In this document: in pieces, positions 19,779 through 51,921 of the stretch
How positions within the stretch are numbered: position 1 is the stretch's first letter
Layout: every line of letters starts with the position of its first letter
DNA from: Fimbriimonadaceae bacterium
Lineage (GTDB): Bacteria; Armatimonadota; Fimbriimonadia; Fimbriimonadales; Fimbriimonadaceae
Direction of reading: 5' to 3'
DNA length: 64,000 nt
NCBI GenBank assembly: GCA_019454105.1
Contig: CP075364.1
Location: 1,863,362 to 1,927,361, forward strand
Translations under genes and position numbers: made by a program
The notes under the pieces: model-generated
Databases searched by the model: none
Told to the model about the DNA's origin: nothing
Seen by the model: the letters and a program-made list of their open reading frames with translations, nothing else

Positions 19779-20633
19779 ATGACGGCCCGACCTTGGAGAC
19801 CTGTTCGCAGGAAAGGGGGGTTTTCCTCGACCGAACTGGTCGCTGTGACCGGTGTGTTCGGCATGGTGCTTGTGTTCGTCTTGCAAGCGATCGGACTCGC
19901 CGACAGCGTCTTCCGCAAGGCCCAAACGTCGGGTATCGGCCTCAAAGAGGCCCGCAAGACAGTCGAAGCGATCATGAGCGACGTCCGGACCGCGACTCGC
20001 TCTCTGGCCCGGTATCCGACCACTGGCGACCCCATGTTCACCTCTGACGAAGAGACCACGCTCATCCTGCATGTGCCCGACAGGCGGCCCGACGGCTCGC
20101 TTGATCACAACCTGGGCACGGTGAAGATCTACGAGGTCGAAGCGGTGGAAGGACCTGAAGGCCCGCTGAGGATCCTGCTCTGGGAGGCCCGTGTCGGTGG
20201 CAACCAAGAAGGCGATCCGGTTAAGAAGCGAGTCGTCGCGAAGCAGGTCTCTCAGGTCGCGTTTGCCCAGTCGGCCGAACAAACAGTGTTCGGAGACGGA
20301 TCCACAAAGTCATTCGGCTTGTTGGCCCCAGCCCTAGGCTCCAACGACCACCTCAAGGAGCAGGTCTTGATCGGTGGAAAGAACCGCTTGTCAGACGGCT
20401 TGGCCGTGTTCGACGGATCCAAGCTCATTCTGGCAAAGGCTCCGAGGGACCAGGTCCCCATTGACGTCCAGTACCGGGTCGATCCCGGAACGGTCGCTGG
20501 CTCCAAAGGGGCCAACGCCTCCTCCTCGGTGACGGTCTTCATTGAGTTTCGACAGGTTTGGCGCACCTCGAAGCACGATGAGGACGCTCGATCAATGCAG
20601 TTCCTGACTCGGAACGCCCTCTTGAACAAATGA
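19779..20633 (+). CDS. Pseudopilin (GspJ/PilW-like position)
   Basis: A 284-residue pseudopilin with a 14-residue basic leader ending in GG and a mature N-terminus FSSTELVAVTGVFGMVL, which keeps Glu at +5. The soluble domain contains many short strands, and in the middle EVEAVEGPEGPLRILLWE. It starts one base after the stop of the preceding pseudopilin and overlaps the next gene as ATGA. It is probably a minor component that primes pilus or pseudopilus assembly with its two neighbours. Confidence 0.82.
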   Translation: MTARPWRPVRRKGGFSSTELVAVTGVFGMVLVFVLQAIGLADSVFRKAQTSGIGLKEARKTVEAIMSDVRTATRSLARYPTTGDPMFTSDEETTLILHVPDRRPDGSLDHNLGTVKIYEVEAVEGPEGPLRILLWEARVGGNQEGDPVKKRVVAKQVSQVAFAQSAEQTVFGDGSTKSFGLLAPALGSNDHLKEQVLIGGKNRLSDGLAVFDGSKLILAKAPRDQVPIDVQYRVDPGTVAGSKGANASSSVTVFIEFRQVWRTSKHDEDARSMQFLTRNALLNK

Positions 20634-22360
20634 CCGTGACAACTCGCCAGAACCTGAGCCCAGAATCCGCCCGCCGGCGCAAGCGAGCGTATTCGACCAT
20701 TGTCGTCTTGATGACCATGCTGGCGTTCGCCACCGTTGGTGTCTCGCTGATGTCGTTCTCGGGAAACCAGTCGCTCGCCGCCCACAGCGCGTCGGGCAAG
20801 ATCCAAGCGAACATCCTCGCTGAGTCTGGGATCCATGTTCTCTATGACCGGATCCGAAACCAAATGCTGAAGAGCCAGACTTACCCACGCCAAACAGAGG
20901 AGGCTCAAGTCAGTTCAAAGGTGGAAGGCACCAGTGTTTCCGCAGGCACCTACCGTGCCAAGATCATAGACGTCAAGACCGTTCAAACCGACGTCACCGT
21001 CGACAGCACGAGAAAGGTGCGGCGCACGTTCTACACCTTCCTGATCGAAGGCGACGGCCGCTCCAAGAGCGGATCCATGACCCGATATCGCGCCAAGTTC
21101 GACGCATCGATCGACCATTCGTTTGTCCGGGCAGGGGCCACCGGTCTGCCTCTCGTCGGCACCCCCGACACCATCCAGTTTCCGGTCGGCGCCTTGGCCT
21201 CAAACTCGACGGTGACTTACCGCGGCGAAGGGGGCTTGAAGACCCTTTCACCAACTGGAAAGGACGCTCACATCTTGGCCAACGGTGGAGTCGAATGGGA
21301 CACCAGGTCCGACGACAAGTCAAACGTCATGGCGTCCGACGTCGTCTCCCTTGAAGGTCAGATCCTTGTCCCTGCCGGCACCGCGTTCGAGAGAACAGTG
21401 GGCCCAGCCGGGCTTGGAAACTTGAACGGGAGAAGGAACTTTAAGACTCCTTCGCTGCCGGCCGACGGCGGGTTCATCGGTTCGGCGGCCAACGAGGTCC
21501 AGAAGTTGGTCGACGCCGCCGCTTTCGCCACTTCGACCCAAGTGTCGACGTGGAGAACGGGATGGCTCACCTCTGTGACCTCGCCGTTAGCCGTAGCTGG
21601 ATTCAGTGATGTCGACGCGAACTCGAACGGGGTCTTCGACAGCGGCGACATATCGCCGAGAGTCGGGGACGGAAAGCGCGTCATTCAAACCCCAGCCCGG
21701 ATTCGAGGGAATTTCAGGATCGAGCCTGGTCAATCGGTCAGCGTGCTGCCTCGGGGCACAAACCAGAAGCAGAACGTCCTTTATGTCGAAGGCAACATCG
21801 TCAATCGTGGCGAGCTGAAGAATCTCGGCGTCAACATCGTAGTTCTTGGCAAGTACCAAGACACGGCCAATGCCATGTACTCCGTCGACTGGTCGGAAGG
21901 CTTCTTCACTTCCAGGAACCGAGCCCTCAAACGCAGCGCGCTCCTCGCAATGTCGGCGTCTTCCGACGCAGTCACGTTCCAAAGTCAGCGGCAGAGCTTG
22001 GTCGGGCTCGTTTATGCCCCGCTCGGCGGCATCAAAGTCGTCGGCGACAGTCCCGACTTGGCCGGGGCACTGGTCGCGGGTGGCTCGGGCTCTCAAGGGG
22101 GCATCCTCGTCGAACCGAACGACGATGGGCCAGCAACAATCAGGTTCGAGCCTGCGGCAGCTTTTGACGACTCCTCTTCTGGAGGTGGCGGCGGCTTGAT
22201 CAACTGGGTGCAAGAAGGGACGGCACGAGAGTTCAGCGCTAGCAAGCTCTATGATTGGGTCGAGATCCCGCTTGACTCCAACGGCGTGCCCTTGAGGCCC
22301 GCGGCTACCAGCGTTGGCCTGCCGATGGTCGGGCCGGCGCCGCCGCCGACCCTGCCTTAA
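20630..22360 (+). CDS. PilX/GspK-like large pilus-assembly protein
   Basis: A 576-residue protein with a strongly basic start (RRRKRAYS) and one N-terminal membrane helix (STIVVLMTMLAFATVGVSL). There is no prepilin Gly-x4-Glu site. A helical stalk follows (NQSLAAHSASGKIQANILAE). The large C-terminal region is repetitive and beta-rich, reminiscent of the PilX/DUF7305 class, and ends in a Gly-rich stretch and a Pro-rich tail. The start overlaps the preceding stop by ATGA. It likely caps or organises the minor pilin complex encoded by this operon. A strong hairpin follows. Confidence 0.75.
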   Translation: MTVTTRQNLSPESARRRKRAYSTIVVLMTMLAFATVGVSLMSFSGNQSLAAHSASGKIQANILAESGIHVLYDRIRNQMLKSQTYPRQTEEAQVSSKVEGTSVSAGTYRAKIIDVKTVQTDVTVDSTRKVRRTFYTFLIEGDGRSKSGSMTRYRAKFDASIDHSFVRAGATGLPLVGTPDTIQFPVGALASNSTVTYRGEGGLKTLSPTGKDAHILANGGVEWDTRSDDKSNVMASDVVSLEGQILVPAGTAFERTVGPAGLGNLNGRRNFKTPSLPADGGFIGSAANEVQKLVDAAAFATSTQVSTWRTGWLTSVTSPLAVAGFSDVDANSNGVFDSGDISPRVGDGKRVIQTPARIRGNFRIEPGQSVSVLPRGTNQKQNVLYVEGNIVNRGELKNLGVNIVVLGKYQDTANAMYSVDWSEGFFTSRNRALKRSALLAMSASSDAVTFQSQRQSLVGLVYAPLGGIKVVGDSPDLAGALVAGGSGSQGGILVEPNDDGPATIRFEPAAAFDDSSSGGGGGLINWVQEGTAREFSASKLYDWVEIPLDSNGVPLRPAATSVGLPMVGPAPPPTLP

Positions 22361-26720: not shown

Positions 26721-28502
26721 ATGGCACTCCCGCGACTTCCGATGGACCAATTCCTGCTGCAAAGGGGATACATCACCCAAGACCAGCTGGACGAAGCCAA
26801 GCAAGTCGCCAAGCAGACCAGCAACCCAGACCTCGGCAAGGTCATTCTGAACCTTGGCTTCGCTGGCGAGCGTGAGATCTTGCACGCCCAGGCGCAAGAA
26901 GCGGGCCATCCCTTCGTCGACCTAGACCGGGTCACGGTCGAACCAGCTGCGATCAGCGCCGTTCCCGAGCGCATCGCGAAGATGCACTCCGTTGTCCCAG
27001 TCAAGAAGGAAGGCTCGAACCTTTGGGTCGCAATGTCGAACCCGAACAACCTTCAGGCGATCGACGATGTCCGGCTGGCGAGCGGGCTGATGGTCAAGCC
27101 GGCCGTCGCCCTGGGTGCGGCGATCGAGGACGCGATCCGCAAGTATTACGCGGGCCAATCGGCCGGGGGCGGAGAAGAGGCCCCGGCTGCGGCCGCCGCA
27201 GCCCCTGCGGCCGCCGGAGGCAGCAAGATGACCTCCGACATGCGGGCCCTCATGGCGCAAGCCCAAACGGTCCGCGATGTGGCCGACCGAGGCATCAAGG
27301 AGGACGCCAGCGACGAGGAGATGGCCGAACAGGCGCCGATCATCCGACTCGCCAACGCTGTCATCCAACAAGCCATCGTCGACCGGGCCAGCGACATCCA
27401 CGTCGAGCCCCAAGAGAGAGCCGTCCGTGTCCGGTACCGCATCGACGGCGTCCTGATGGAGGCGATGACCGTCCCGAAGAACCTTCAAGCGCCCCTCGTT
27501 TCGCGCCTGAAGATCATGTCGGAGATGAACATCGCAGAGAGGCGCATCCCTCAGGACGGACGCATCGAAGTCCGGAACCAAGGCAAGGACTTCGACCTCC
27601 GCGTCAGCAGCATCCCGACCCCCTTCGGCGAAAAGATCGTCATGCGCATCCTCGACAAAGGGAACGCCATGGTCGGACTGGCCAAGCTCGGCATGCTCCC
27701 GGACGTCCAGGCCCGGATCGAGGAATTGGTCAGCCAGCCAAACGGCATGTTCCTTTGCACTGGCCCCACGGGCTCAGGAAAGACGACGACGCAGTATTCG
27801 GTCCTCAACAAGCTGAACACGATGGAGGTGAACATCATCACCATCGAGGACCCGGTCGAGTACCAGCTCAGCGGCATCGCCCAGGTGCAGGTCAACCGCA
27901 AAGCCGGTCTCACGTTCGCCACCGCACTCCGCGCCTTCCTCCGCCAAGACCCGGACATCATCCTCGTCGGCGAGATGCGCGACCTGGAAACGGCCGAGAT
28001 TGCCATCGAGGCGTCGCTCACGGGGCACTTGGTGCTCTCCACGCTCCACACCAACGACGCCCCTTCCGCCACCCTCCGAATGGTCGATATGGGCGTCGAG
28101 CCGTACTTGATCTCGGCGACCGTCATTGGCATCCTCGCCCAAAGGCTCGGCCGAAAGATCGACCCCGAGAACAAAGAGCCGTACGTGGTCAAGGAGATCG
28201 ATCTCCGGAGGTTCGGACTTGAGGTCAAGGACGCCGACGCGGACGTGACCCTGTATCGGGGTGTCCCAAGCGAGAACAACCGGCACACCGGTTACCGGGG
28301 CCGCATGGGCATCCACGAGCTCATGTGCATGAACGAGGAGATCGCCGAGCTCGTGGTGCGGCGCGCCCCTTTGGCCGACATCAAAGCCGCGGCCAAGGCG
28401 AACGGGATGAAAGAGCTTCGAGAAGACGGACTCGCCAAAGTCCTCGCTGGCGTCACGACGCCAGAAGAGGTCATGCGCGTGGTCTTCACGGCGGGCTTCT
28501 AA
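26721..28502 (+). CDS. pilB: Type IV pilus assembly / type II secretion ATPase
   Basis: Hexameric cytoplasmic motor that polymerises pilins. The 593 residues contain an N-terminal GspE-N/MshEN domain (LLQRGYITQDQLDEAKQVAK), an Ala/Gly-rich linker near residue 155, Walker A GPTGSGKTTT near 347, the Asp box, Walker B ILVGEMRDLETAEIA and the His box LSTLHTNDAPS. The four-cysteine zinc site normal for PilB/GspE between the His box and TGYRGRMGIHEL is missing: that stretch has no cysteine. It probably powers the pili formed by the pseudopilins elsewhere in the window. Confidence 0.92.
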   Translation: MALPRLPMDQFLLQRGYITQDQLDEAKQVAKQTSNPDLGKVILNLGFAGEREILHAQAQEAGHPFVDLDRVTVEPAAISAVPERIAKMHSVVPVKKEGSNLWVAMSNPNNLQAIDDVRLASGLMVKPAVALGAAIEDAIRKYYAGQSAGGGEEAPAAAAAAPAAAGGSKMTSDMRALMAQAQTVRDVADRGIKEDASDEEMAEQAPIIRLANAVIQQAIVDRASDIHVEPQERAVRVRYRIDGVLMEAMTVPKNLQAPLVSRLKIMSEMNIAERRIPQDGRIEVRNQGKDFDLRVSSIPTPFGEKIVMRILDKGNAMVGLAKLGMLPDVQARIEELVSQPNGMFLCTGPTGSGKTTTQYSVLNKLNTMEVNIITIEDPVEYQLSGIAQVQVNRKAGLTFATALRAFLRQDPDIILVGEMRDLETAEIAIEASLTGHLVLSTLHTNDAPSATLRMVDMGVEPYLISATVIGILAQRLGRKIDPENKEPYVVKEIDLRRFGLEVKDADADVTLYRGVPSENNRHTGYRGRMGIHELMCMNEEIAELVVRRAPLADIKAAAKANGMKELREDGLAKVLAGVTTPEEVMRVVFTAGF

Positions 28503-46172: not shown

Positions 46173-46195
46173 GGGGGGGGGGGGGGGGATAACGT
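46173..46195 (+). promoter_or_regulatory. G16 homopolymer abutting a -10-like hexamer (cassette 1 promoter)
   Basis: Sixteen consecutive G (46173-46188), one A, then TAACGT (46190-46195), which ends 9 bases before the ATG of the Cys-rich gene. The tract fills the region where the -35/-10 spacer should be. With a TTGGGG -35-like start at 46171, the spacer is now 13 bases, shorter than optimal. Confidence 0.55.
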
Positions 46196-46204
46196 CGCCT
46201 TGAA

Positions 46205-46561
46205 ATGAAGACGTTGATTTTCTCGGGGCTCCTTTCGACAGGATTACTAAGTGCCGTCATCGCGACATCAATGGTCGCTCTTGATGAAAGACCACCAGCC
46301 TTTAAGCCCAGTAGTGATACTTGCGTCGCTTCCAGGAGCTACGAGGAGCCGCAAGCCCCTTGCGCGGCATCGGGCGTGACGGACGCCTGTCTCAAGGAGT
46401 GCACCCCAGTACCAGGAAACGCTTCATACATGGATCGTCCGAGCGGTAATCCAAAGTGCGCATCGGAATCGAACCCCAAGTGCATTTGGATCGAATGTCG
46501 ACGATGGGCCTACGACAACCCAAACTGCAATCCGCCGTCTGTGAGTGAGATCCCGACGTAA
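46205..46561 (+). CDS. Small secreted protein with eight cysteines (cassette 1)
   Basis: A 118-residue protein I do not recognise. It has a signal peptide (KTLIFSGLLSTGLLSAVIA) and a mature part of about 92 residues with cysteines at 40, 53, 62, 66, 85, 93, 98 and 108. An even number in an exported protein suggests up to four disulfides. It is rich in Pro, Asn and Ser. It starts right behind the G16 tract, and a pseudopilin gene follows 85 bases downstream on the same strand. The same pairing recurs at 48449. Confidence 0.7.
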   Translation: MKTLIFSGLLSTGLLSAVIATSMVALDERPPAFKPSSDTCVASRSYEEPQAPCAASGVTDACLKECTPVPGNASYMDRPSGNPKCASESNPKCIWIECRRWAYDNPNCNPPSVSEIPT

Positions 46562-46646
46562 AAGAAGGGATGCTCCGAAGCGGCTGAGCCTCGCTGACTC
46601 AAGCTTCGACGAACTGTGTCAAAATTGTGTTGGACAGACCCACCCC

Positions 46647-47267
46647 ATGATTCAGTCCAAGTCGCGATCTCGCGGACTCACCATCATTGAGCTTCTTGTG
46701 ACGATCACCCTCGTGGTTCTCCTAGCGGGTCTGACAGCGACAGGAATCTTGCAAGCCGTCAAACATGCTAAGAAGTCCGCGTGTTTGAATAATCTGGTCA
46801 CCATCGGCAAGGCTCTCGAGATCTACGTATCGGACCATGACGGCTACTTCCCATCGCCTCCGTGGTTCGCTCAAAGAGGACGCAGACCCATGATTCAAGA
46901 GTTCAAAGACTCCTTAATGCCCTATGGGACTTCTGAAACGACTTTTTACTCACCGTCCGACCCATACGCCCGACAAGAAGTCATGGGCGAGATGGTCGAC
47001 CGAAGGCTTTCGAGCTACGCTATGCACTTCCACGTGCTGTTCAAGTCAGAGTTCACCGCAGACGGCTCCATGGTCTTTGCCCCAGCGAGGGTTTCTGACC
47101 CTTCCGACTTCATGGTCTTTCTCGTCGACACGATCCTACGCTTTGACGAGTCGACTGGCCGCTGGAACAGATGGTCGCCCCAAGGCCAGACGGTCAACGC
47201 GCTCTACTTGGACGGTCGTGCCAAGGCCATTCCGTTTCCGGAACCCGAACTGAAGCCCCGACGTTGA
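46647..47267 (+). CDS. Type IV pilin-like protein (cassette 1)
   Basis: A 206-residue prepilin. The 10-residue basic leader (IQSKSRSRG) is cleaved before LTIIELLVTITLVVLLAGLT, with Glu at +5 and a long hydrophobic helix. The conserved pilin stalk ACLNNLVTIGKALEIYVSDH follows, and near the C-terminus VNALYLDGRAKAIPF resembles the H-X9-DG processing-associated motif. The start at 46647 gives the standard leader; the frame is open upstream. After the TGA stop the same frame remains open for 37 codons to TAA at 47381, including a Trp-rich stretch. Confidence 0.82.
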   Translation: MIQSKSRSRGLTIIELLVTITLVVLLAGLTATGILQAVKHAKKSACLNNLVTIGKALEIYVSDHDGYFPSPPWFAQRGRRPMIQEFKDSLMPYGTSETTFYSPSDPYARQEVMGEMVDRRLSSYAMHFHVLFKSEFTADGSMVFAPARVSDPSDFMVFLVDTILRFDESTGRWNRWSPQGQTVNALYLDGRAKAIPFPEPELKPRR

Positions 47268-47315
47268 CGCCAAACTTGCCCTTGTCAGGCAAAGACAAGT
47301 CGCCACCAGCTTCGT

Positions 47316-47381
47316 ATGTTTCGGTTTAGTTGGAACTGGAACGAGTCGGCCTGGCAATGGTGGAACTGCGGCAAGCCGTAA
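47316..47381 (+). CDS. Tryptophan-rich 21-residue microORF (hypothetical)
   Basis: ATG to TAA, 21 residues with Trp at positions 6, 8, 13, 15 and 16; the end reads WNWNESAWQWWNCGKP. It lies 48 bases behind the pilin stop in the same reading frame with no stop between, and 23 bases before a terminator-like hairpin. No Shine-Dalgarno is visible. It could be a small peptide, a Trp-sensing leader peptide, a readthrough tail of the pilin, or chance. Confidence 0.3.
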   Translation: MFRFSWNWNESAWQWWNCGKP

Positions 47382-47404
47382 GATCGACCTCGACCTAGGA
47401 ATCA

Positions 47405-47425
47405 GGCCCGCATTTCAAGCGGGCC
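47405..47425 (+). terminator. Terminator-like hairpin after cassette 1
   Basis: GGCCCGC pairs with GCGGGCC around ATTTCAA, followed by CCAATCTTCT. It separates the pilin and microORF from the small membrane protein gene. Confidence 0.5.
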
Positions 47426-47523
47426 CAATCTTCTGAACTGCCATCACAAGGCAGAAATGTCGGTTCTGTCGCAACGGACAGCCTCGTTGAACCGTCTCTG
47501 CTCTCAGCACCTAGAGCACCTTT

Positions 47524-47775
47524 ATGGAAATCATTGGCATCCTTTTCACGATCGTCGCGTTTGTTTGCGGCCTCATCATCCTCATCCACGCCTTCAAGAG
47601 CGCCCTGTGGAAAGGGTTGGTGGGTCTCTTCTGCGCCCTCTACCTGCTCTATTACGGCTTTGCCGAGTTTCAGCATCCCAAGAAGCCGTTGATCCTGGCC
47701 GGTTGGATCGTTGGGGCCCTGCTCGGCGGGTTCCTCAACGTTTGGAAGAGCTTTTCGGCCCTGACCGGCGGCTAG
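47524..47775 (+). CDS. Small three-helix membrane protein
   Basis: An 83-residue hydrophobic protein with three predicted helices (IIGILFTIVAFVCGLIILIH, LVGLFCALYLLYYGF, LILAGWIVGALLGGFL) and basic loops. The function is unknown. A TAGAGC hexamer ends 6 bases before the ATG, so it is probably transcribed alone. It is convergent with the lipoprotein gene, the stops interlocking in a CTAG. Confidence 0.65.
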   Translation: MEIIGILFTIVAFVCGLIILIHAFKSALWKGLVGLFCALYLLYYGFAEFQHPKKPLILAGWIVGALLGGFLNVWKSFSALTGG

Positions 47776-48233
47776 CCTCCGGTCGCTCGATCGAACGTCG
47801 CGCTCCCCTCGGGCCAGGACAACACGAATTTGTCCTGGCCTTCCCATTTCACTTTGAGGTCGCTGCGGGTCAAGCCTGCCTTCATTTGGCCTTTGGCCCC
47901 TTCGATCAGGGGCTTCGCCATGCCTTTCATGGCCTCGGGCAGACCGTCTGTCTCGGCCTGGACGTCGGTCACGGCCAGCGTCATCGTGTCGCCCTGCAGT
48001 TTGTAGGTGCCTTGGCCCGTGAAAGATCCGCTCACCTTTCCCATCCCTGGCAGTTCTGTGTCGACCGTCACTTTGACCGTCACTTTGTCCGGCGAGGCGA
48101 AAGTCGCGGTCGTCGTTGACCCTGGAGGGAGGCCGGGCAGTCCCGCCACGTTCCAGGTGCCGTCAAAGGACGGCCCCGCACAGCCAGCAGCCAGGGCGAC
48201 GAGGGTCAAGGGCACGAGACGGCGCATGGCCAT
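47772..48233 (-). CDS. Small lipoprotein of unknown function
   Basis: A 153-residue exported protein with lipobox VALAAGC and mature Cys near residue 18. The beta-rich body begins DGTWNVAGLPGLPPGST and contains TGQGTYKLQGDTMTLAVTD, a layout like small lipocalin-type or META-like domains. The start is the ATG at 48233, or the next one at 48227. It is convergent with the small membrane protein. Confidence 0.75.
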   Translation of the reverse strand: MAMRRLVPLTLVALAAGCAGPSFDGTWNVAGLPGLPPGSTTTATFASPDKVTVKVTVDTELPGMGKVSGSFTGQGTYKLQGDTMTLAVTDVQAETDGLPEAMKGMAKPLIEGAKGQMKAGLTRSDLKVKWEGQDKFVLSWPEGSATFDRATGG

Positions 48234-48421
48234 CAATATGGCAAGGTGCGACCTCGCGAATGGGGGCCGTCCTGTCAGGGCCCTGCTGACCTTAACAGAT
48301 CATAGGCGACTTTGCACTGCCTCACTCGGATCTGTCCTGAGGGTCTGTTCAAACCCACCGTTGCCGTGAATCGAACTTGACAGTATTTTTACTTGTTTCG
48401 CTCGATGAAGTTGCGATTCGC

Positions 48422-48442
48422 GGGGGGAGGGGGGGGTAACTT
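48422..48442 (+). promoter_or_regulatory. G6-A-G8 tract abutting a -10-like hexamer (cassette 2 promoter)
   Basis: GGGGGGAGGGGGGGG (48422-48436) is followed at once by TAACTT (48437-48442), which ends 6 bases before the ATG at 48449. A TTGCGA (48411-48416) lies 20 bases upstream of the hexamer as a possible -35 box, so loss of 2-3 G would give normal spacing. Confidence 0.55.
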
Positions 48443-48448
48443 GCGAGT

Positions 48449-48802
48449 ATGAAAAGACTAGTAATATTCGTAGTAGGTGCGCTCATGGTGACGGTTCACG
48501 CGTCCGTCGGGGTCGATGCCTTTCACTCAGTTCCGGTCAGAGACGCCACCGGAACTGAGCAACGGATTCCGCCCTGCCAGAACTGTGAGAGTGAACCGAG
48601 CGACTCTTATTCCCAGAATTTCACTCAGTACAGCGCAAATTGCTCGCTTTGGCCGTTCAATTGGCAGGAAAAGTGGCGGAAAGACTTCCAGGTCTTCTTC
48701 TGTGAAAACGGCTTCTACCAAGTGTGCACCGATGTCGTTCTGACCGGGTGCGGCATCCCCCAACAGGCGGCCGATTGCTCCGGAAGCTGCGTCCCACAGT
48801 GA
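48449..48802 (+). CDS. Small secreted protein with eight cysteines (cassette 2)
   Basis: A 117-residue protein I do not recognise. The signal peptide is KRLVIFVVGALMVTVHASVG. The mature part has cysteines at 43, 46, 65, 85, 93, 101, 110 and 114 and an aromatic stretch CSLWPFNWQEKWRKDFQVFF. Length and cysteine number match the cassette 1 protein, but the cysteine spacing differs, so common descent is uncertain. The next gene, a pseudopilin, begins 2 bases after the stop. Confidence 0.72.
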   Translation: MKRLVIFVVGALMVTVHASVGVDAFHSVPVRDATGTEQRIPPCQNCESEPSDSYSQNFTQYSANCSLWPFNWQEKWRKDFQVFFCENGFYQVCTDVVLTGCGIPQQAADCSGSCVPQ

Positions 48803-48804
48803 CC

Positions 48805-49500
48805 ATGAGAAGTCCGCGTGGGCCCCGAGGGTTGACCCTCCTTGAAGTCGCGGTCAGCGTAGCCATTCTCGTGACCTTGGTTGCCGTCCTCGTGCCCGTC
48901 GTGGCGAAATCTAAGCGACAGGCAAAAGTCGGGTCGGACAACGAGGCGATGCGTCACATCGGACAAGCGGCCGCCCTGTACACAGACCAGCACGGCCCGC
49001 ACGTCCGGTCTTGCTTTGAGCTCTACGAAGCCGGCATGGTGCCGAAGGAACTCCTCTCTGGACTCAGCGACCCCACCGAACTTGGATGGTCGAACGTCGT
49101 CATGCTCGAAACGAAAAAGCATCTGGGCAACTCGGCTAAGGACAAGGCCATCTATCCGCGAGACTACCGGATCAGCTATATCGGTGCCCGAGAAGGGGGA
49201 GGCAGCGACCGTTGGCTGGCGCGGGCGGAGCCTGGTTCCGTCGGGTGGCTAGTGAATATCTCCTCGTCTGATCCTGAGATTCCTCAGCAACAGTACAATA
49301 CGCTGAGGCGAGTAGGGCACTACTATCGGTTGCTCCGTGACGGGGCCGTCGTGAAACGACAGCACATCATTGAGAATTTTGACCAAGGAAGGTCTTGCGT
49401 CAGCTCCCGTTGGTTCTACGGCGATTTCTCGACTCAAGATCGCCGTCAAACCTGTGAAGACATCATGAACGGGAGGCCTCCCAAGGAATCCGAACAGTGA
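48805..49500 (+). CDS. Type IV pilin-like protein (cassette 2)
   Basis: A 231-residue prepilin with leader RSPRGPRG cleaved before LTLLEVAVSVAILVTLVAVL, Glu at +5, and a pilin stalk (KVGSDNEAMRHIGQAAALY). The soluble domain has three cysteines (RSCFELYEAG, GRSCVSSRWFY, RRQTCEDIM), unusual for these pilins. It starts 2 bases after the Cys-rich gene, and its stop overlaps the next GTG start (GTGA), so four genes are read as one unit. Confidence 0.82.
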   Translation: MRSPRGPRGLTLLEVAVSVAILVTLVAVLVPVVAKSKRQAKVGSDNEAMRHIGQAAALYTDQHGPHVRSCFELYEAGMVPKELLSGLSDPTELGWSNVVMLETKKHLGNSAKDKAIYPRDYRISYIGAREGGGSDRWLARAEPGSVGWLVNISSSDPEIPQQQYNTLRRVGHYYRLLRDGAVVKRQHIIENFDQGRSCVSSRWFYGDFSTQDRRQTCEDIMNGRPPKESEQ

Positions 49501-49880
49501 TCAAACCCATCCGAGACCTGCTGGCTCCCTTCGTCATTTCGATCCTGCTCACCGTCTTCAGCCAGAGCGTTGTCGGGTTTTTGACCAATCTGGTTGTGGG
49601 AGCAACGACCGTGATCCTTTCGAACGCTGTCTCGCAACGGATCGCGCCTAACAAGAAGGAGCCCAAGACGACCCTCCTTGCGGCCCTGCTCGCAGGCCTA
49701 GCTTGGGGCGGCGTGGTGTTGGTCGTCGGACTCATGCTAGGGCCTAGCGGCATCCCCACGAACCTTGTGCCTCTGGTGGCGCTTGGCGCCGGGATTCTCG
49801 GAGGGACGTACGTCGCCGTCGGACGCCTTCTCGAATGGGCCGTCCATCGTTTCTGGGGGAAGGCAAAGTTCGCTCAGTGA
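49497..49880 (+). CDS. Membrane protein in cassette 2 (unknown function)
   Basis: A 127-residue protein with an amphipathic start and about three membrane segments (LAPFVISILLTVFSQSVVGF; TTLLAALLAGLAWGGVVLVVGL; LVPLVALGAGILGGTYVAVG, each trimmed to its core). It has no domain I recognise. It starts with GTG overlapping the pilin stop, and its own stop overlaps the next GTG, so it is translationally coupled on both sides. Confidence 0.65.
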   Translation: MIKPIRDLLAPFVISILLTVFSQSVVGFLTNLVVGATTVILSNAVSQRIAPNKKEPKTTLLAALLAGLAWGGVVLVVGLMLGPSGIPTNLVPLVALGAGILGGTYVAVGRLLEWAVHRFWGKAKFAQ

Positions 49881-50266
49881 CCGACCGTCTCCTCGTCGCG
49901 TCCGCCCTCATTGCCTTCCGCCTCTTGTCCCTTGTAATGGACGGCGGGTCTCTCAACTCGACGTCCGTCTTTGTCGTGGCGGTTGCCACAGGCTCGTTAG
50001 CCTATTTCGTCGTCATGGCTTCGTGCTGGCTCAGGAAGAGCAGCATCCTTCGAGCGGTCTATGGCGCGTTTCTCGTGTTCATGATCACGTTTGGGCCCCT
50101 CTACTATTCATATCGTTCTTTCGCCCCAATTGCCTTCTTGGAGTCATTGCTTTGGACCCTCCAGTTTCTGGGTGCTTGGCTCTCGGGACGAGTCCTCAGG
50201 GACGTCATGGGACGCTGGACTCGCGACTTTCAACTGGGCGCAGTCCAAGCGGACACAAAGTCCTGA
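49877..50266 (+). CDS. Second membrane protein in cassette 2 (unknown function)
   Basis: A 129-residue hydrophobic protein with about four membrane segments (LLVASALIAFRLLSLVM; VFVVAVATGSLAYFVVMAS; RAVYGAFLVFMITFGPLYY; FLESLLWTLQFLGAWLSG) and a basic C-terminus. The GTG start overlaps the preceding stop (GTGA). The function is unknown; its place at the end of the pilin unit suggests assembly, anchoring or immunity for the first two products. Confidence 0.6.
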   Translation: MTDRLLVASALIAFRLLSLVMDGGSLNSTSVFVVAVATGSLAYFVVMASCWLRKSSILRAVYGAFLVFMITFGPLYYSYRSFAPIAFLESLLWTLQFLGAWLSGRVLRDVMGRWTRDFQLGAVQADTKS

Positions 50267-50502
50267 TCGCGCTCGCGGCCTTTTGAGGGCCACCCGATTC
50301 AAGGCCCAGTGAGCCTTCAGATGCGCGGGCGACGGGTGTCGGTACACTCTGCCTCGTGCCCGGGCCAAGTCGGACGCGGCGGAGCAAGAGACAAGCCAGG
50401 TCGGTTTCACCGACTGGCCTGACTGTCGCCGTGCCAACCGGCATTGAGAGCATCATCCGGGAGATCGCCCAGATCCCCAAGCCAGAGGAATCCACCCAAC
50501 CC

Positions 50503-51921
50503 ATGTCACAAGGAAGTTTTGACGCCGACATCATCGTCATCGGAGCAGGCCCTGGAGGCTACGTGGCCGCCATACGGGCCGCACAACTAGGAGCGAAAGT
50601 CACCGTCGTCGAGAAGGAATACTTGGGGGGAACCTGCCTCAACTGGGGGTGCATCCCGAGCAAGGCTCTGATCGCCAGCGTCGAAAGGCTCCATGACGTC
50701 AAGTCGGCCGACAAGCTCGGTGTCGTCGTCAACGGCGAGGTCTCGATGGACTTCGAAAAGATGATGGCCCGCAAGGACAAGATCGTCCAGACCCAGCGCG
50801 GCGGGGTCGGGATGCTCTTCAAGAAGAACGGCATCACCCACGTCGAGGGCTTCGCAAAGTTCAAAGACGCGCACACGATCGAAGTGGAGAAGGACGGAAA
50901 GACGACCGAGCTCCGCGCCAAGAACTTCGTCCTCGCCATGGGATCCGGCGTGATCTATCTCCAGATCCCCGGGCTAGAAGGGGGACGGGACGACGGCGTC
51001 TGGACGAGCGACGACGCGGTGACCGCTCCGTTCGTCCCTAAGAGGATGCTGATCCTCGGGGCCGGGGCCGTGGGGGTCGAGTTCAGCTACGTCTTCAACG
51101 GCCTCGGGAGCCAGGTCACCCTGGTCGAGATGATGCCAAGAGTCATCCCGATGTTCGACGAAGACCTGGGCAACGAACTCGGCAAGCAACTCTCTCGAAG
51201 TGGGATCAACGTCGTGACGGGAGCCTCGCTGGAGAAGTGCAAGAAGGGCAAGAACGGCTGGGTCTGCACCGTCAAGACCGGCGCCCAGACGACGGACGTG
51301 GAGGTCGACGTCGTGCTCCTCGGCGTCGGTCGCAAGGCGATGACCGACAACATGAACCTGGAAAAGATCGGCGTCAAGCTCCATCGCCGTGGCGTCGAAG
51401 TCGTCGATGACTCGCTTCAGACGCACGTGCCGAACATCTATGCCATTGGCGACGTGACCGGCCGGATCCAGCTCGCCCACGTGGCCAGCCACGAGGGGAT
51501 TGTCGCGGTCACCAACATCGTCCGCGGGGAGAAGCGAAAGGTCGATTACAAGGCGGTTCCGAACTGTGTCTACACAGTGCCCGAAGTGGCCAGCGTCGGG
51601 CTTACCGAGGGCCAAGCCAAAGAGCAGGGACACGACGTCACCGTGGGCAAGTTCGCCTTCCGACCCTTGGGCAAGGCGATGGCCAGCACGCACCAAGAGG
51701 GGCTGGTCAAAGTCGTCGCCGAGAAGAAATACGGCGAAGTGCTTGGCGTGCACATGTTAGGGGCGCACGTGACCGACATGATCCACGAAGGGGTCGCCGC
51801 GATCAAGCTGGAGGCCACCCTCGACGTCATGGTCGACACGATCCACGCCCACCCGACCATGAGCGAGGCCGTGCTCGAAGCCTTCGAGGACGCCTTGGGC
51901 CACGCGATCCACAAGGCCTGA
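50503..51921 (+). CDS. lpdA: Dihydrolipoyl dehydrogenase
   Basis: E3 component of 2-oxoacid dehydrogenase complexes; re-oxidises dihydrolipoamide with NAD+. The 472 residues include the FAD loop VIGAGPGGYVAAIRAAQLG, the redox disulfide GGTCLNWGCIPSKAL, the NAD loop ILGAGAVGVEFSYVF, NIYAIGDVTG and the C-terminal His-Glu dyad in HAHPTMSEAVLEAF. The start at 50503 fits the family; an open frame continues upstream without similarity. No E1 or E2 gene is adjacent. Confidence 0.95.
   Translation: MSQGSFDADIIVIGAGPGGYVAAIRAAQLGAKVTVVEKEYLGGTCLNWGCIPSKALIASVERLHDVKSADKLGVVVNGEVSMDFEKMMARKDKIVQTQRGGVGMLFKKNGITHVEGFAKFKDAHTIEVEKDGKTTELRAKNFVLAMGSGVIYLQIPGLEGGRDDGVWTSDDAVTAPFVPKRMLILGAGAVGVEFSYVFNGLGSQVTLVEMMPRVIPMFDEDLGNELGKQLSRSGINVVTGASLEKCKKGKNGWVCTVKTGAQTTDVEVDVVLLGVGRKAMTDNMNLEKIGVKLHRRGVEVVDDSLQTHVPNIYAIGDVTGRIQLAHVASHEGIVAVTNIVRGEKRKVDYKAVPNCVYTVPEVASVGLTEGQAKEQGHDVTVGKFAFRPLGKAMASTHQEGLVKVVAEKKYGEVLGVHMLGAHVTDMIHEGVAAIKLEATLDVMVDTIHAHPTMSEAVLEAFEDALGHAIHKA

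Follow-up and report, generated by a model that had tools for sequence, protein, structure and literature searches.

Cysteine-rich exported proteins encoded beside prepilin-like proteins in Fimbriimonadaceae: candidate cargo and minor-pilin cassettes

In the genome of a Fimbriimonadaceae bacterium of the phylum Armatimonadota (assembly GCA_019454105.1, contig CP075364.1), two gene cassettes combine a small exported protein rich in cysteines with a prepilin-like protein. Both lie in one window, the whole stretch of 64,000 nucleotides analysed here (C1:1863362-1927361 of the single-contig 2.74-Mb genome), and are referred to as cassettes A and B. The pairing exceeds chance, because it is lacking in control stretches and at 32 other pilin genes of the host genome and recurs in the same and in dozens of other genomes. 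On balance, we lean towards reading each cassette as a dedicated module made up of a cargo and its minor pilin, in which docking of the cargo, its export by the filament, switching of expression and the role of a third gene are inferred.

Cassettes A and B and their recurrence

The genes of the two cassettes are as follows.

46205..46561, plus strand: CysA, exported protein of 118 amino acids (aa) with a signal peptide and eight cysteines, family A
46647..47267, plus strand: pilin A, prepilin-like protein of 206 aa (GLTIIELLVTITL), partner of CysA
48449..48802, plus strand: CysB, exported protein of 117 aa with a signal peptide and eight cysteines, family B
48805..49500, plus strand: pilin B, prepilin-like protein of 231 aa (GLTLLEVAVSVAIL) with the B-type C-terminal domain (GWLV...YxRLLxDGxVVxR)
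49497..49880, plus strand: third gene of cassette B, polytopic membrane protein of 127 aa
49835..50266, plus strand: second small membrane protein, 143 aa, overlapping the 49497..49880 gene

The same gene order at both sites, an eight-cysteine exported protein of 117-118 residues followed by a prepilin-type protein, had been noted in an initial annotation made from the sequence. Its positions were confirmed, and the pilin starts were refined to ATG 46647, 85 nt past the CysA stop, and ATG 48805, 2 nt past the CysB stop. Each pilin gene lies 3' of its Cys gene on the same strand, and in both CysA and CysB exactly eight cysteines lie beyond the signal peptide. The third gene (49497-49880) had gone unremarked, as had the possible meaning of the G tracts at 46173-46188 and 48422-48436. 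This gene begins with GTG in a 4-nt overlap with the pilin B stop (GTGA) and encodes a homologue of the third-gene product of a cassette in genome G009 (E = 5.9e-12). Cassette A is without a conserved third gene. For the 143-aa membrane protein, no regular fourth-gene counterpart was seen in related cassettes, and its membership of cassette B is uncertain.

A genome scan of the host gave 41 N_methyl matches, and small exported open reading frames (ORFs) with at least six cysteines lie beside nine of these pilins. With cassettes E and K, which came from other searches, the host genome holds eleven cassettes: A and B in the window, C (2.433 Mb), D, E, F (1.20 Mb), G and H (1.75 Mb), I (2.673 Mb), J (2.015 Mb) and K (1.835 Mb). 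They are scattered among unrelated genes, outside any gsp or pil operon. Since the first detector of Cys-rich exported ORFs missed H, I and J (3/9 cassettes at scanned pilins), the search at the other pilins was repeated with relaxed rules; none of the 32 non-cassette prepilin genes of the host genome had an exported Cys-rich neighbour. Across 220 kb of control sequence from the same genome, a single small exported ORF with at least six cysteines was found (in L084), and its sequence led to the judgement that it is a shadow ORF. In cassettes F, I and J the pilin gene comes first, followed by the Cys gene and a third gene, for which F and I have homologues of one another (E 3e-9). In cassette K an in-frame stop shortens the Cys gene while the pilin and membrane-protein genes are open, and in cassette J the Cys gene appears frame-disrupted. 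A homopolymer as the source of this apparent frameshift was rejected, as no tract is present there.

Cassettes related to these are present in dozens of other genomes. Among the 113 genomes of the order, the family B profile had matches in 9 and the family A profile in 10, the host included in each case (8 and 9 further genomes, respectively), and nearly all convincing matches are followed directly by a prepilin gene on the same strand. A reverse search with the B-type pilin returned 44 distinct full-length pilins, in 27 cases immediately preceded by a gene for a Cys-rich exported protein and in 36 immediately followed by one for a polytopic membrane protein (counts hand-corrected for L072 and L026). 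The B-type pilin domain occurs in 32/291 genomes of the phylum, almost all Fimbriimonadaceae. Outside the order it was found in two genomes, as a complete cassette in G214 and as pilin and membrane protein only in G142. In addition, matches of a G106 protein were found in two Fimbriimonadaceae metagenome-assembled genomes, ACE_ARM7 and ACE_ARM8, in keeping with a position of the host in Fimbriimonadales; the pilin alignment gave no match to a named relative.

Three architectures can be distinguished: Cys–pilin (as in A), Cys–pilin–polytopic membrane protein (as in B) and pilin–Cys–anchored membrane protein. Of the 113 genomes, 41 (26/47 genera) carry the third gene of the pilin-first arrangement. 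When 29 of these loci were read, a prepilin gene was present in 24 and a Cys-rich exported protein (93-121 aa, 8-13 cysteines) also in 16, a count that excludes L260, where the automatic Cys call was the pilin itself. Across cassettes, the cysteine number ranges from 6 to 13. A B-type cassette in L150 (G027:C2) has an upstream Cys protein of 157 aa with ten cysteines, longer than usual and perhaps with an extended core. The initial annotation had proposed searching related genomes for the pair; such co-occurrence was thus found, and what recurs is not only a pair, as cassette B and its relatives include a third, membrane-protein gene. Neither an absence of the pair elsewhere nor membership of the two Cys proteins in unrelated well-known families, the two outcomes named there as counting against the idea, was observed.

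Pilin identity and the Cys protein families

Both window pilins carry the prepilin motif including Glu5. In the genome scan they scored 23.7 and 22.2 bits against PF07963, above the cut-off of 21.2, and in the single-protein search 20.5 and 18.8 bits, just below it, so that the match is borderline; with TIGR02532 they reached 15.2 and 15.3 bits against a cut-off of 16.3. Glu5 is kept in 41/44 B-type pilins, as parsed, indicating that these pilins are probably able to enter a filament. Many cassette pilins contain cysteines themselves. The B-type C-terminal domain had no significant family or PDB sequence match. The host genome encodes two secretins and four full-length PilB/GspE-type ATPases, one of these in the window, and filaments can therefore presumably be built. 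Elsewhere in the window, at 19779-22360 and 26721-28502, a prepilin-like gene and then a large pilin-cluster-type gene were seen and, 4 kb beyond these, a full-length PilB/GspE-type ATPase (27321-28478).

CysA and CysB are alike in length, signal peptide and cysteine count and differ in cysteine spacing, as first described. Family B follows the pattern PPCxxC...C...C(E/x)NGxY...C...C...C. A relationship between the two proteins was rejected: when the family A and B profiles were compared, only the signal peptides aligned (probability 17%). Judged by their sequences, CysA and CysB belong to two unrelated families, which have separate sets of relatives and are paired with different kinds of pilin. 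CysA had no match in Pfam, NCBIfam, PADLOC or PHROGs and no significant match in PDB, and neither the Cys nor the pilin profiles had a significant match among PDB sequences. PADLOC gave no match to a defence system.

The initial annotation had regarded the Cys proteins as a fast-diverging family, and this view was not borne out. Besides the split into two families, orthologous B cassettes of the sister species G105 and G106, which are separated by a synonymous distance (dS) of about 0.6, have an eight-cysteine core with a nonsynonymous distance (dN) of 0.01 and a dN/dS of 0.016. The comparison figures are 0.13 for leader and linker, 0.044 for the pilin, 0.052 for the membrane protein and 0.04-0.065 for neighbouring genes. 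Fast divergence or positive selection of the core is thus unsupported between G105 and G106. Over this distance, constraint on the core is strong, and the wide divergence from cassette to cassette would be old or derived from exchange.

Exchange of cassette parts and promoter homopolymers

Pairwise distances were compared in 24 complete B cassettes. Cys and pilin distances are correlated (Mantel r 0.40, p 0.0002), also with the membrane protein held constant (r 0.35); the corresponding values are 0.24 for Cys and membrane protein and 0.28 for pilin and membrane protein. The Cys–pilin correlation is compatible with co-inheritance of the two genes as a unit. In G032, two cassettes stand in tandem and share about 400 bp at 97% identity, from the 3' end of the permease gene upstream through promoter and signal peptide to the N-terminal linker. 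This identity ends abruptly within the Cys gene, and the Cys core and the pilin are at saturated synonymous distance. Such a pattern, seen in this single case, is as expected if core and pilin were exchanged together while the leader stayed in place. The related genome G003 has Ns in its assembly exactly at the tandem site. A common insertion site was sought within the genus g30 and none was found, the cassettes there lying at unrelated chromosomal sites. At one B-type cassette (L088, G029:C29), an IS3-like transposase pair lies directly beside it (L118 5360-6477) and may have aided its movement.

Both window cassettes have a G tract upstream of the Cys gene.

46173..46188, plus strand: 16-G homopolymer, ending 16 nt before the CysA start and followed directly by ATAACG (-10-like)
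48422..48436, plus strand: G-rich tract GGGGGGAGGGGGGGG (G6-A-G8), ending 12 nt before the CysB start and followed directly by TAACTT

A TAAC-like element thus directly follows the tract in both cases. The tract at CysA is the longest among only 15 G/C tracts of at least 9 nt in the 2.74-Mb genome, and four of these 15 precede the leading gene of cassettes A, G, H and J (p ~6e-10), the pilin gene in the case of J. With a region of -100 to +12 and a threshold of at least 8 nt, a homopolymer was found upstream of the first gene in 15/38 cassettes versus 0.56% of random windows (binomial p ~2e-24), and at 0/32 starts of non-cassette pilins in the host genome. The enrichment at cassette promoters suggests putative slipped-strand phase variation of the whole operon. 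The switch would not be universal, as 23/38 cassettes have no such homopolymer. Between the two G032 copies the length of the tract varies, with T11 in one and T9 in the other.

Further G tracts of the host genome were noted at other genes. Immediately ahead of the genes of two paralogous secreted proteins, each about 370 aa long, are G9 tracts (G000:C1:1341008 and C1:1563486; L190, L194; ..AW(C/V)PAQGE.VP.YFSGTK..), possibly another phase-variable exported family. G9 tracts are also found at the 5' end of the genes of two paralogous proteins of about 150 aa (G000:C1:303567 and C1:1190423; L184, L185; ..WQLDY..EEQWSGGEPPN..).

Possible mechanism, alternatives and known systems

In the proposed mechanism, the Cys-rich protein would be exported by Sec to the periplasm and folded there with disulfides. 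It would then dock on the minor pilin encoded by the adjacent gene, probably via a flexible N-terminal linker, like TcpF on TcpB. The pilin would be processed as other prepilins are and inserted into filaments of the cell's own type IV machinery, and the filament-borne pilin would carry its cargo to or through the outer membrane, for display or secretion. The small membrane protein of three-gene cassettes may act as an inner-membrane partner, either an assembly or loading factor or a means of self-protection. Length changes of the promoter homopolymer would switch many cassettes, from which a changing repertoire across the population is proposed. Carriage or display of the Cys protein by its pilin-like partner, the role suggested in the initial annotation, would best explain the pairing; the tip adhesin or toxin given there as examples are candidate activities. 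A more specific version is offered tentatively: the Cys proteins could be disulfide-rich effectors borne on pilins, every one of them provided with a separate carrier pilin and a membrane protein for immunity or loading. They would form a new class of phase-variable, recombining surface module in Armatimonadota, with type IV filaments mediating contact-dependent competition or self/non-self recognition.

Several observations weigh against the cargo–carrier module. Shared ancestry alone could yield the Mantel correlation of Cys and pilin distances. Variation in tract length was observed between the two G032 copies only. AlphaFold models from three-sequence alignments reached a predicted local distance difference test (pLDDT) score of 40 for pilin B, confident for the N-terminal helix only, and of 33 for CysB. 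Moreover, several B-type pilin–membrane-protein pairs (L145, L147, L149, L154, L157 and L160) are without a Cys gene, indicating that the Cys protein is sometimes dispensable or the first to be lost.

Within the cargo–carrier reading, the Cys domains may be adhesive or recognition tips that bind polysaccharides, surfaces, phages or kin cells, with variation and switching serving adhesion or evasion rather than killing; we regard this sub-case as possible, though doubtful. Homopolymer phase variation classically affects surface proteins, and the host-genome G tracts ahead of further secreted paralogue families fit such a role. Type 4 filaments with non-pilin adhesins at the tip are well known (PMC10191384), and Fimbriimonas ginsengisoli, which is non-motile, possesses fimbriae for attachment as well as 79 PulG-like genes (PMC4072686). 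Nevertheless, library and PDB sequence searches found no lectin- or adhesin-like similarity in the Cys proteins, and adhesion would leave the dedicated membrane protein unexplained.

The cassettes might also form a polymorphic antibacterial system, in which the pilin carries the Cys protein as a toxin delivered on contact and the membrane protein confers cognate immunity, the cassettes being swapped and silenced like loci of contact-dependent inhibition (CDI), Rhs loci or class II bacteriocin loci. This toxin–immunity scheme is drawn only from the architecture of the cassettes. It would account for the many divergent cassettes per genome, their patchy distribution, a dedicated small membrane protein that diverges along with its cassette and the apparent allele swap in G032, where promoter and leader stayed constant; the pilin–membrane remnants with an absent or truncated Cys gene resemble orphan immunity genes. 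However, searches of Pfam, NCBIfam, PADLOC and PHROGs linked no Cys protein to a known toxin and no cassette membrane protein to a known immunity protein, and cassette A in the window is without a conserved third gene. The Cys core of G105 and G106 is under strong purifying rather than diversifying selection, and a pure immunity role does not predict that the pilin survives together with the supposed immunity gene. Overall, this explanation appears unlikely.

It is quite improbable that the Cys protein is a periplasmic helper of its pilin, such as a chaperone, redox or stability factor, instead of a cargo. One-to-one linkage and co-divergence with the pilin would suit a helper, as would the cysteines of many cassette pilins. 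Against it, some pilins of the same type persist without the Cys gene, the number of cysteines varies between cassettes from 6 to 13, and phase-variable expression would be odd for a chaperone. Incidental linkage of non-cooperating proteins, by mobile or selfish units or a local habit of gene order, could explain the unrelated chromosomal sites even within one genus, but it is the most improbable explanation given that the combination exists in three arrangements of its genes and extends to distantly related families of the phylum, with gene junctions that overlap or leave 2 nt, and is absent at the 32 other host prepilin genes.

The closest known parallels are found in pathogen pili. In one of them, the flexible N terminus of TcpF hooks onto the minor pilin TcpB and TcpF is secreted by the pilus (PMC9565799); CofJ–CofB is a parallel case of a type IVb secreted protein and a minor pilin (PMC10191384). 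As in both pairs, the gene of a soluble protein exported by Sec adjoins that of a minor pilin, and in the Cys proteins, too, a linker separates the signal peptide from the folded core. Unlike both pairs, the cassettes lie outside any pilus operon, number up to eleven per genome and often include a membrane protein as third partner and a promoter homopolymer. No library search linked the Cys proteins to TcpF, TcpB, CofJ or CofB. With the minor pseudopilins of type II secretion and type IV minor pilins, the cassette pilins share the prepilin motif, Glu5 and the N-terminal helix, whereas the B-type C-terminal domain stands apart in having no significant match and the cassettes are found outside gsp and pil operons. 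The Verru_Chthon cassette proteins A-D (TIGR02596, TIGR02599) are likewise encoded in multi-gene cassettes built on prepilin-type proteins. However, the best scores were 18.2 bits versus a cut-off of 70 (TIGR02596) and 11.4 versus 256.5 (TIGR02599), over the N-terminal helix only. To our knowledge, Verru_Chthon cassettes contain several pseudopilins and no Cys-rich exported protein.

A further likeness is to polymorphic toxins and to VARTIG of Thermococcales, a variable module with recombination behind a conserved 5' part and membrane proteins tied to particular subfamilies (PMC8416519). As in these systems, a variable part seems to have been exchanged behind a conserved N-terminal region, in the one case of G032. 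Unlike them, the cassettes have no recognised toxin or immunity domain and have a regular pilin neighbour, and their constant part consists of promoter, signal peptide and linker. A text search, largely of non-subscription literature, found no description of such cassettes, in line with the initial annotation, which knew of no described system with this pairing. A cargo with a cognate minor pilin is known as a principle; a scattered, multi-copy and apparently switchable and exchangeable cassette with a membrane partner is, as far as we know, new.

Genomes of Fimbriimonadales contain dozens of prepilin genes without a known role, 79 PulG-like genes in F. ginsengisoli being an instance, and the cassettes would make part of this excess dedicated carriers of one cargo each. 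If this holds, secretion by cargo and minor pilin would extend from the pilus operons of pathogens to an environmental phylum, in the form of a multi-copy repertoire that is switchable and exchangeable. The tracts would then also be the first sign of homopolymer phase variation in Armatimonadota, within the literature searched.

Some neighbouring genes were also noted. Between cassettes A and B lie a putative lipoprotein gene (47775-48236, minus strand) and a gene for a small membrane protein of 83 aa (47524-47775). A dihydrolipoamide dehydrogenase gene stands beside the window cassettes (50356-51921) and beside the cassette of G104 (L122 4039-5595), which may reflect chance or a preferred site.

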